Shown: in pieces, positions 20,105-23,017 of the stretch | Layout: each line of letters begins with the position of its first letter | Numbering within the stretch: position 1 is the first letter of the stretch | NCBI GenBank assembly: GCA_013202745.1 | Contig: JABMRJ010000056.1 | Span: 1-39,062 of the forward strand | Length of the DNA stretch: 39,062 nucleotides | Source: Candidatus Omnitrophota bacterium | GTDB lineage: Bacteria; Omnitrophota; Gorgyraeia; JABMRJ01 | Direction: 5' to 3' | Program-made: the position numbers and the translations under genes | Notes under the pieces: model-generated | What the model was told of the DNA's origin: nothing | Database searches by the model: none | Seen by the model: the letters and a program-made list of their open reading frames with translations, nothing else

Positions 20105-20133
20105 ATTATATAAGAGCAAATAATGATTGTCAA
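20105..20133 (-). promoter_or_regulatory. Near-consensus sigma70-type promoter for the ROK kinase gene
   Basis: Minus strand TTGACA (20128-20133) - 17 bp - TATAAT (20105-20110); ROK start codon at 20078. Confidence 0.75.
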
Positions 20134-20155
20134 TAGTTATAAGTGCGGGTATAGA

Positions 20156-20367
20156 GGCATGCGGTGCTTTGCATGTTGGCTGAGCACATGGGGCTATTCG
20201 AGCGGGGCCTTTTTTTGGCGGAGCGGGCATGGTTTTTTGCTATAGATTACATACAGGCAAAAAGAGCGGAGCCAAAAAACGGAGCGAGATTTTCCACGCT
20301 GGGGAAAATCGAGCGCTCCCGCGAGAATAGCCCCATGGGCTCAGCACGGAGGCAAGTACCGCGGGCC
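20156..20367. repeat. Large imperfect inverted repeat with nested hairpins (structured intergenic element)
   Basis: Arms pair over ~44 nt each, with a perfect 13-bp core CATGGGGCTATTC (20187-20199) / GAATAGCCCCATG (20325-20337); inner stems CCTTTTTTTGGC/GCCAAAAAACGG, TTTTTGC/GCAAAAA, GGAGCGaGATTTTCC/GGAAAATCgagCGCTCC. Confidence 0.85.
20274..20319 (-). terminator. Candidate rho-independent terminator downstream of the diguanylate cyclase genes
   Basis: Minus strand GGAGCG-CTC-GATTTTCC-CCAGCGT-GGAAAATC-T-CGCTCC (20319 to 20281) followed by GTTTTTT (20280-20274). Confidence 0.65.
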
Positions 20368-20369
20368 CC

Positions 20370-21602
20370 TTACCCAGCATACACGCATACCCTATTACGA
20401 CCGGCATTCTTTGCGGCATAGAGCGCTTGGTCCGAATTCTCTATCAACTCCTCTATCTCTCCTGCATTGGATGGGAAGGACGCTATACCTATGCTGATCG
20501 TCACCTCAGTAGATTCGTCATAGGCCTTGAATCTATACTTTTGTACTATCTCCCTTATCCTCTCTGCGACCAGATGCGCTTCATCCCTGCCGGTCTCCGG
20601 AAGAATAACACAGAATTCCTCGCCCCCGAATCTACCTACAAGGTCGACTTCTCTTGTATTCTGCTTCAGTATATATACAATATCTTTCAAGACGACATCG
20701 CCAACAAGGTGGCCGTATGTATCGTTGTATTTTTTGAAATGGTCTATATCTATCATGAGAAATGAGAGGTCGTAATTGTGACGCCTCGACCTTTCAAACT
20801 CCTCTCCAAGACGTTCCATCATGTGCCTCTTGGCAAATGCCTTTGTAAGACCGTCCGTTATGGCCATCTCCTCGACCTTTTCATAAAGGACTATCCTCCT
20901 CATCTCCAATGCAAACTGGGAAGCAAGGATTGAAAACTTTTCATAATCACTGGCCGGCAAGTCTTCTATAGCCAGGATGCCCATAAGCTGATCTCCTATT
21001 ACTATAGGGATTGCCATGAATGTCTGGCAATTTTCAGGGAGGAGTTCTGCATAAGGATTCTGCTCCCACTTGCTCTTTACAATCTGTATACGCCTTATCT
21101 CATCCCTTAGGATATTAGATATTTTATTGTCGTGTTCGCATAGCGGACGCGTAGCAATCTCCAGCTTTGGTATAATACCCTTTGCCTTTAACGTACTATC
21201 CTGCAGCCCTGTGGTTTCAATGACCATATTTATCGAAGAGGTCTCATCCTCTCCTTTTATAAGGATAAGCCGCGCCTTCTTAAAGAGAAATGTCATATAA
21301 AGATATTCGGATAACATCTTGAATATATCAAAAAATTTCAAGCCTTTTGACATCTCCTTGACAATTTCATAAAGGCTCGCCTGCTCTGCCAGTTTTTCAT
21401 TAAACTTAAGGTGTGCATCATAGATAGATGCCTCCTCCGATACAAATTCATTAAAACGCCTCTCATCAGAGAGGTAGGCACCGGTAAGGCCGTTTCTGTA
21501 CTCTTTAAAGGATCCCTTGATCTTGGAGAATACAAGAGGAACCAGGATAGATGCCAAAAGCATCAGCGCTATTATATGGAGATAGTTCATCAGCTCATGC
21601 AT
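20370..21602 (-). CDS. GAF-GGDEF diguanylate cyclase (with RxxD I-site)
   Basis: N-terminal TM segment, GAF-like domain, DGLTKAFAKRHMMERL, MIDIDHFKKYNDTYGHLVGDVVL, REVDLVGRFGGEEFCVILPET, SIGIASFP. Confidence 0.93.
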   Translation of the reverse strand: MHELMNYLHIIALMLLASILVPLVFSKIKGSFKEYRNGLTGAYLSDERRFNEFVSEEASIYDAHLKFNEKLAEQASLYEIVKEMSKGLKFFDIFKMLSEYLYMTFLFKKARLILIKGEDETSSINMVIETTGLQDSTLKAKGIIPKLEIATRPLCEHDNKISNILRDEIRRIQIVKSKWEQNPYAELLPENCQTFMAIPIVIGDQLMGILAIEDLPASDYEKFSILASQFALEMRRIVLYEKVEEMAITDGLTKAFAKRHMMERLGEEFERSRRHNYDLSFLMIDIDHFKKYNDTYGHLVGDVVLKDIVYILKQNTREVDLVGRFGGEEFCVILPETGRDEAHLVAERIREIVQKYRFKAYDESTEVTISIGIASFPSNAGEIEELIENSDQALYAAKNAGRNRVCVYAG

Positions 21603-23017
21603 ACCTTATTTCTTCCCTCTTTCTTTGCGCGGTAGAGATTAGAGTCAGCGATCTTGAGTAGATCTTCCTTGCCCATGGCATTATCGGATAAGGTTGAGAC
21701 GCCTATAGAAACTGTAACGTTGGTCTTTATCCTCCTGATGTAGAAAGGCTCTTCCTCAACCTTCCGCCTTATTTTCTGTGCCATCTTTCCTGCAGCCTTA
21801 TTATCTTCACTAAAGAGTATAACAGCAAATTCTTCGCCGCCGTAACGTGCCACTATATCACCTTTACCTACTATTGAGACAAAGAGCCCTGCCAGATGTT
21901 TCAATAATATATCCCCGGCTATATGTCCGTATTTATCATTGTAGCCCTTAAAATGGTCTATATCTATCATAAGGATCGACAAAGGATGTCTCTGCTTCTG
22001 GGCCCTCTTGATCTCTGATTCAAGGCGCTCGGTAAAATACCTATGGACAAAGAGCTGTGTCAGGCCATCTTTAATGGCGAGTTCTGTAGTCCTTTGATAT
22101 AGGATATTATTGTGCAGGGCTACGGCTCCCAGATCGCCTATAATATCCAGGAGTCTGAGGTCATCCGGATTATAGGCATCTATCTTCTCGCTATCGAGCC
22201 TGAGGAGCCCTATGACCTTGTTATGGCTCACCATTGGGACCGCTATCAGAGATTTAAAGCTTATATCTTCCAGCGATATGTCGTCATGAGAAAACCTGAA
22301 GTCCTTAGCCGCATCCAATATGATCAGCGGCTGGTTCTGCCGGAGTACCCATTTATCGAAGATGTCGCCTTTCTTAGATTTGATCTTTGCAAAATGAGGG
22401 GGCTGCTTTGCATGCTTCAATATAAGTTCCTGGCGTTCTTCGTCCACAAGATAGATGAGGGCCCTCGTAGACTTTCCCACTATATCAAGAGACTTCTCTG
22501 CGAGAAAACCTATTACCTTTTCAATAGAAAATATGTCGCTTAAGTTTTCTGCTACACTCTTAAGTTCTCCGTATCTATGCAGCTTCAACTCTAAGGCCTC
22601 TATCTGCGCGCGGTCCATCTCTATCTTTTTAGAGAGGGTATTCATCTCCTCGCCCACCTTCTCTCTCTTTAATAAATATTCTGTTTGGAACTTCATAAAT
22701 ATGTTAAGGTATTTAAAAGAGTACGCTGTCGTAATAGAAAAAGGCAGGAGGTGCAGATAATAGAGCTGATTGCCGGTTATCAGGGATATGGCGAAAATGA
22801 GTATTGCGCAAAATATCAGGACTACAATACCGCCTATCCAGCCGAAGGCGAACCAACCTGAGGCGATAACAGCATTGAATACGAGCAAATAGGAGGTTAA
22901 CTGGACAGAAAATGGAGTATCTTTATTTAAGTCTAACTGAAGTAGAAAGTAGGTAAGAAACGTTATGAGGATCAAACAAACAGCGCCTAAGAATACCCTG
23001 TCTCTGATAAGATTCAT
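21590..23017 (-). CDS. GAF-GGDEF diguanylate cyclase, multi-TM N-terminus (I-site degenerate)
   Basis: Several N-terminal hydrophobic helices, GAF-like domain, DGLTQLFVHRYFTERL, MIDIDHFKGYNDKYGHIAGDILL, GKGDIVARYGGEEFAVILF, SIGVSTL. Confidence 0.93.
   Translation of the reverse strand: MNLIRDRVFLGAVCLILITFLTYFLLQLDLNKDTPFSVQLTSYLLVFNAVIASGWFAFGWIGGIVVLIFCAILIFAISLITGNQLYYLHLLPFSITTAYSFKYLNIFMKFQTEYLLKREKVGEEMNTLSKKIEMDRAQIEALELKLHRYGELKSVAENLSDIFSIEKVIGFLAEKSLDIVGKSTRALIYLVDEERQELILKHAKQPPHFAKIKSKKGDIFDKWVLRQNQPLIILDAAKDFRFSHDDISLEDISFKSLIAVPMVSHNKVIGLLRLDSEKIDAYNPDDLRLLDIIGDLGAVALHNNILYQRTTELAIKDGLTQLFVHRYFTERLESEIKRAQKQRHPLSILMIDIDHFKGYNDKYGHIAGDILLKHLAGLFVSIVGKGDIVARYGGEEFAVILFSEDNKAAGKMAQKIRRKVEEEPFYIRRIKTNVTVSIGVSTLSDNAMGKEDLLKIADSNLYRAKKEGRNKVCMS

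Follow-up and report, generated by a model that had tools for sequence, protein, structure and literature searches.

A probable MITE-like family of branched palindromic elements dispersed in Omnitrophota and other uncultivated bacteria

Introduction

The ERIC-like palindromes of enterobacteria are imperfect, exceed 100 bp, lie between genes, and occur in many copies; to our knowledge, neither a three-way-junction core nor a spread over many uncultivated phyla is a known feature of theirs. The element described here, which we compared with them by description only, is also an imperfect intergenic palindrome of >100 bp present in many copies. As a non-autonomous, multi-copy extragenic palindrome, it likewise resembles the REPs and REPINs. 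However, REPs measure 20–40 bp (PMC3733652), whereas this element, at approximately 240 bp, is about six times longer and has a different fold with a three-way junction, and genomes carrying at least 17–21 copies of it had no detectable Y1_Tnp (the REP, or RAYT, transposase). For these reasons, the REP-like option raised in a preliminary description of this locus was set aside.

Palindromes within palindromes, intergenic and regarded as selfish, occur in Volvox organelle DNA, where nested short palindromic repeats average about 50 nt with a 3–5 nt loop (PMC2670323), and among the double-hairpin elements of Allomyces mitochondria. These resemble the present family, but they are eukaryotic organelle repeats, whereas the element here comes from bacteria and its core is branched and conserved. 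As in MITEs, the element is short and non-coding, has terminal inverted repeats, is dispersed between genes in multiple copies, lacks an enzyme of its own, and is insertion-polymorphic at orthologous sites. No target-site duplication was recognised by eye and no parental transposon was found at the scanned loci. Unlike MITEs, its copies nest at hairpin tips, and different phyla have in common a three-way-junction core in which the loop letters are fixed and the stems are free to vary. Here we describe the copy found in a 39,062-nucleotide stretch of contig JABMRJ010000056.1 (assembly GCA_013202745.1; hereafter, the window), together with its relatives in other genomes.

Results

The element occupies approximately 240 bases between neighbouring genes in an uncultivated Omnitrophota bacterium, at positions 20143–20380 on the + strand, as delimited by the outermost predicted pairing in the fold; the inverted repeat I1 is further evidence for it. 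The preliminary description had placed an imperfect inverted repeat at 20156–20367. This repeat is real, and its three named blocks are all present: CATGGGGCTATTC (20187–20199) pairs with GAATAGCCCCATG (20325–20337), CTGAGC (20180–20185) with GCTCAG (20339–20344), and GCGGT (20161–20165) with ACCGC (20358–20362). The arms assigned to it (20156–20199 and 20325–20367) do pair, but the pairing runs beyond these limits, to about 20143 and 20380. The arms at 20179–20206 and 20318–20345 were 89% complementary and formed the longest inverted repeat found in the window. With RNA parameters, the + strand of 20140–20400 folded at −123.3 kcal/mol (z = −8.21; none of 200 shuffled sequences was equally good) and the − strand at −111.9 kcal/mol (z = −6.95); with DNA parameters, z was −7.57 and −6.68 for 20150–20390. 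The complementarity had been judged unlikely to arise by chance, and the fold was far better than that of shuffled sequences on both strands and with both parameter sets. The minimum-energy fold was a three-way junction with two inner hairpins, an architecture that had been anticipated and that is also backed by covariation across genomes.

The conserved three-way-junction core (20184–20338) scored 103.1 bits with the covariance model R1, which was built from 74 sequences including the window copy itself. All parts of the element are given on the + strand. The outer stem P1 is formed by a 5′ arm at 20179–20209, ending in a TTC-GA-GCGGGG block with a G.A step, and a 3′ arm at 20315–20345 (GCTCCCGC-GA-GAATAGCCCCATG..GCTCAGC). 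The P2 arm (20210–20279) consists of the stem TTTTTTTGGC/GCCAAAAAA, an internal loop, and, within the same interval, the distal hairpin P2b (TTTTTTGC..GCAAAAA). The conserved GAGCGGGCATGGT on the 5′ side of the internal loop (20221–20233) faces the conserved GAGCGG on its 3′ side (20264–20269). The hairpin P3 (GGAGCGAGATTTTCC-ACGCTGG-GGAAAATCGAGCGCTCC) lies at 20281–20319.

Both neighbours were identified with Pfam and lie on the − strand. To the left is a ROK family gene (PF00480; 19104–20078), the promoter of which (TTGACA-17-TATAAT; 20105–20133, −) matches the consensus at 12 of 12 positions and is intact just outside the element. To the right is a GGDEF diguanylate cyclase gene (PF00990; 20370–21602), the 3′ end of which overlaps the outer arm. 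The outer arm had been described as abutting the cyclase stop codon; the contact is real, but the right end of the element overlaps both the last codons and the stop codon (20370–20372). No terminator-like site was found in the window region around the element. In a separate observation, diguanylate cyclase genes lie side by side at 20370–23017 (−) of the window, one GGDEF and one GAF-GGDEF, and two adjacent cyclase matches also occur in relatives (e.g., G001 and G006).

The first relatives of the element came from plain DNA similarity alone, at a stage when no pattern or structure had yet been presupposed; they occurred in 10 of 59 genomes. RNAalifold identified 21 pairs in this similarity-found set, 12 of them with two-sided changes. 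In the 74-sequence alignment, 36 pairs were supported, and paired cells accounted for 80.2%, compared with 56.4% in column-shuffled alignments and 34–52% in slid controls. Cells with two-sided changes numbered 700 in this alignment versus 252 in shuffles, and covariation was 0.564 versus 0.176. The arms thus covary, with stems that change yet stay complementary, which is how the covariance check on homologues suggested in the preliminary description turned out. Across the family, P1, P2, and P3 are joined in a three-way junction. The internal loop of P2 is purine-rich (GAGCGGGCAYGGT/GAGCGA), the loop of P3 reads WCGCTGG in the context CC-WCGCTGG-GG, and the inner end of P1 in the similarity-found copies reads GAGCRGGG/CCCYGCGA. 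Because the pattern used to choose the 74 sequences fixes loop letters, the invariance of those letters in that set arises by construction; much the same letters were seen, independently of the pattern, in the similarity-found set. The G.A steps of P2 were near-invariant in the pattern-chosen set, and those of P1 and P3 were common without being universal. Some copies in G031 carried TTCGGGCA/GAGAAA in place of the usual P2 internal loop; copies in this genome were sharply bounded (CGGGTG.../...GACCCG), and the host bases immediately flanking them were often complementary to each other. The family had no match in Rfam 15 at the gathering score or at E ≤ 10, and no description of it was found in the open-access literature searched, an earlier description elsewhere being possible; it is apparently uncatalogued.

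The preliminary description had proposed a similarity search for further copies, and these were found both in the same genome and in relatives. The window's own genome contains one other full copy (contig C78; 86% identity over 163 nt), copies truncated at contig ends in C61, C42, and C158, and only right-half copies in C62, C29, C72, and C149. Another repeat, TTGTACCGGGTGC...AGCTGTCCCC(A/G)GGGACAGCTT, adjoins the copies in C78, C42, and C158 (loci L002, L004, and L005) and looks like a separate REP-type element. In C72 (locus L008, about 1610–1750), the right-half copy is closely followed by a promoter and by a leader resembling, by eye, an FMN riboswitch. Among relatives at the class level, the covariance model detected the family in 77 of 147 genomes, with at least 12, 21, and 20 copies in G011, G048, and G021, respectively, when up to 21 candidates were scored per genome. 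When one genome per species was scanned with the pattern, at least 118 stretches matched. Record titles among the matches listed include Omnitrophota, Aminicenantes, Parcubacteria and other Patescibacteria, Auribacterota, WOR-3, Bipolaricaulota, and Acidobacteriota, among others; these names are the depositors' titles, and some bins may be mislabelled. Three loci (L034, L042, and L051) that by eye appeared to be chance matches in coding DNA were left out.

In 16 genomes reached via the pattern matches, the covariance model found 1 to 56 copies each, including 56 in one Aminicenantes genome, 34 in one Auribacterota genome, 20 in a Parcubacteria genome of 0.8 Mb, and 11 in a single-contig Candidatus Omnitrophota chromosome (CP070655.1). 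The matches in G105, a genome of the window's class, have coordinates identical to those in the genome containing CP070655.1, and this assigns the window to Omnitrophota. One bin titled Actinobacteria bacterium FK_Sedi_B_Bin.138 (G156, locus L038) has 35 copies, apparently close in sequence to the Aminicenantes ones, and its taxonomic label may be wrong. The pattern matched once in 2.9 million viral contigs and the window copy had no match among phage or plasmid records, and a phage or plasmid origin was accordingly rejected.

The copies are intergenic, occur in either orientation, and commonly lie within longer palindromes. For the 92 copies with both neighbours, the neighbouring gene strands were −− in 41, ++ in 26, +− in 14, and −+ in 11. 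No neighbour protein recurred around the scanned loci; those common to a few of them were all from ordinary housekeeping families. Replication-strand bias, taken as a sign of lagging-strand transposition, was absent (39 of 80), and a lagging-strand ssDNA mechanism thus gains no support.

Comparison of orthologous sites showed that copies are gained and lost, including at the window's own cyclase–ROK gap. G001, which belongs to the same family as the window genome, preserves the cyclase–ROK gene order and a near-identical, intact ROK promoter and lacks the element. Within genus g18, G139 carries copies at three sites where several congeners have none. At one of these (site B), a plain 32-bp palindrome similar to the outer arms of the G139 copy is present in one congener and a different palindrome in another, and two have neither. 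The element is absent from G084 at all four sites occupied in G132, and from G118 at the three that can be compared, the fourth being split between contigs; at one of these sites, G118 retains the same outer arms (TTTGCGGGTGGC/GACAGGACCCGCAAA) around a different hairpin, and at another it has an unrelated palindrome. From these vacant and altered sites in g18 and at the G132 loci, it follows that palindromes are gained, lost, and exchanged there. At site A, the gap in G111 (locus L254) contains a different palindrome, AGTAGCGGAGCGAGTCCCGACG...CGCTTCGCTACT, apparently branched with G.A steps and possibly representing a further related family.

In genus g18, 15 loci, some of which overlap so that the independent sites are fewer, carry a palindromic insert at the tip of the P2b hairpin. 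In some cases the insert is the element itself in reversed orientation, and in others it belongs to a second palindromic family; the two motifs flanking it are 175–228 bp apart. This second family (..CATTCGGCAC...AATGTGCCTCAG..) was seen at the P2b tip of many copies (L199, L207, L209, L211, L214, L215, and L216). No gene was found inside the P2b of interrupted copies, only other palindromes. The self-nested copies belong to a single outer subfamily and could derive from one event followed by spread as a unit. Across 120 copies, the complementarity between left and right flanks, intrinsic P1 included, had a median score of 14.5 versus 7.5 for flanks of different copies, and exceeded the 99th percentile of controls in 93. 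At the sites compared, no target-site duplication was recognised by eye, and the outer flanks of several copies were inverted repeats. Insertion at hairpin tips accounts most simply for both the nesting and the flank complementarity. The empty sites in G001, G084, and others, however, have no obvious palindrome and do not support insertion into an existing hairpin, so that the arms may instead have grown after insertion, by fold-back synthesis.

Discussion

The preliminary description had offered several explanations for the locus, including a structured RNA and a cis-regulatory element. A chimeric foldback created during assembly has a negligible probability: amplification or assembly can generate long inverted repeats, and several copies lie at contig ends, but the same conserved structure recurs in independent assemblies, among them the single-contig chromosome CP070655.1 with its 11 copies, and this earlier worry is thereby refuted for the family. 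A role as a riboswitch, attenuator, or terminator of the cyclase or ROK gene would suit a position between a stop codon and a promoter; it is nevertheless very improbable, given that copies occur in both orientations beside unrelated housekeeping genes, that the G001 ortholog has an intact promoter without the element, and that the region contains no terminator-like site. A multi-copy family of structured non-coding RNA genes outside Rfam, with transcription from the + strand, would agree with the strong covariation and with the conserved internal-loop and hairpin-loop letters and G.A steps, which resemble RNA tertiary motifs. In all stems, G.T mismatches outnumbered A.C mismatches (133 versus 73; p = 3.5e-5), so that the + strand as written is the folding strand, again as such an RNA would require; a fold without strand preference, suggested by equal G.T and A.C numbers in the inner stems, was rejected because the P1 arms show a G.T excess. 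The G.A oppositions recur in P1, P2, and P3 and would be C.T mismatches on the complementary strand; together with the mismatch bias, they favour a single-stranded + form. However, A.C mismatches were far commoner than in 33 tRNAs from the same loci, where G.T to A.C was 18:1 (Fisher p = 0.005), and this surplus leans towards DNA over RNA without deciding between them. Orientation independent of genes, up to 56 copies, insertion polymorphism, and nesting would be unusual for an RNA gene, and Rfam was unmatched even at E 10. Nothing specifically favoured a non-coding RNA, and we regard this explanation as unlikely.

Alternatively, the copies may be a class of palindromes maintained by the host, for example as sites for gyrase, HU, or a hairpin nuclease, that spreads passively by template switching or recombination at hairpins without a dedicated transposase. 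The turnover of palindromes at the same spots in sister species and the exchange of outer-arm contents are consistent with this, as is the failure of any tested transposase to track with the element. Y1 transposase was found in 118 of the 147 genomes, but Y1_Tnp was undetected in G016, G048, G073, G009, and G051, which have at least 17, 21, 8, 7, and 8 copies, respectively, and none of 30 Y1 loci contained the element. RVT_1 was undetected in G048, G105, G152, G153, G158, and G161, and IS110 in G016, G048, G073, G153, G156, G158, and G161. These are metagenome-assembled genomes, in which a single absence is weak; G016, G048, and G073, however, are related, 93–98% complete, and all without detectable Y1 and IS110. 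RAYT/Y1, reverse transcriptase, and IS110 were therefore each rejected as a required partner, subject to the completeness of these genomes, and the mover would be an enzyme of another class or host repair at hairpins. Around the scanned loci, neither an autonomous partner nor a linked enzyme turned up, which weighs against a mobile element. On the other hand, the conservation of the same unpaired letters in many phyla speaks for specific recognition, and about half of the relatives have no detected element, which makes host maintenance rather unlikely.

We consider that the family probably represents dispersed, non-coding, palindromic mobile elements, similar to MITEs and mobilised in trans. 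Of the options in the preliminary description, a palindromic non-autonomous mobile element is the one that the multiple copies, empty orthologous sites, and nested copies support. A putative enzyme supplied in trans would recognise the single-stranded + strand, the intermediate could be DNA or RNA, and insertion would prefer the tips or loops of existing hairpins. Such a preference would explain why P1 runs into complementary flanks that are specific to each locus. The window copy would have been inserted between the cyclase stop codon and the ROK promoter, breaking neither. More tentatively, and with considerable doubt, the family may form a mobile-element class of its own, in which a branched single-stranded nucleic acid, recognised through conserved unpaired letters, is moved by an enzyme and inserted at hairpin tips, including those of its own kind, in many uncultivated phyla.

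Shared by Omnitrophota, Aminicenantes, and Patescibacteria, including genomes of 0.4–0.9 Mb, the family constitutes an unannotated part of their mobile DNA. Its branched core, in which the loop letters are fixed and the stems covary freely, provides a defined substrate for finding the enzyme that recognises it, and the family offers a natural test of insertion at hairpin tips. The element also probably causes contigs to break in metagenome-assembled genomes.
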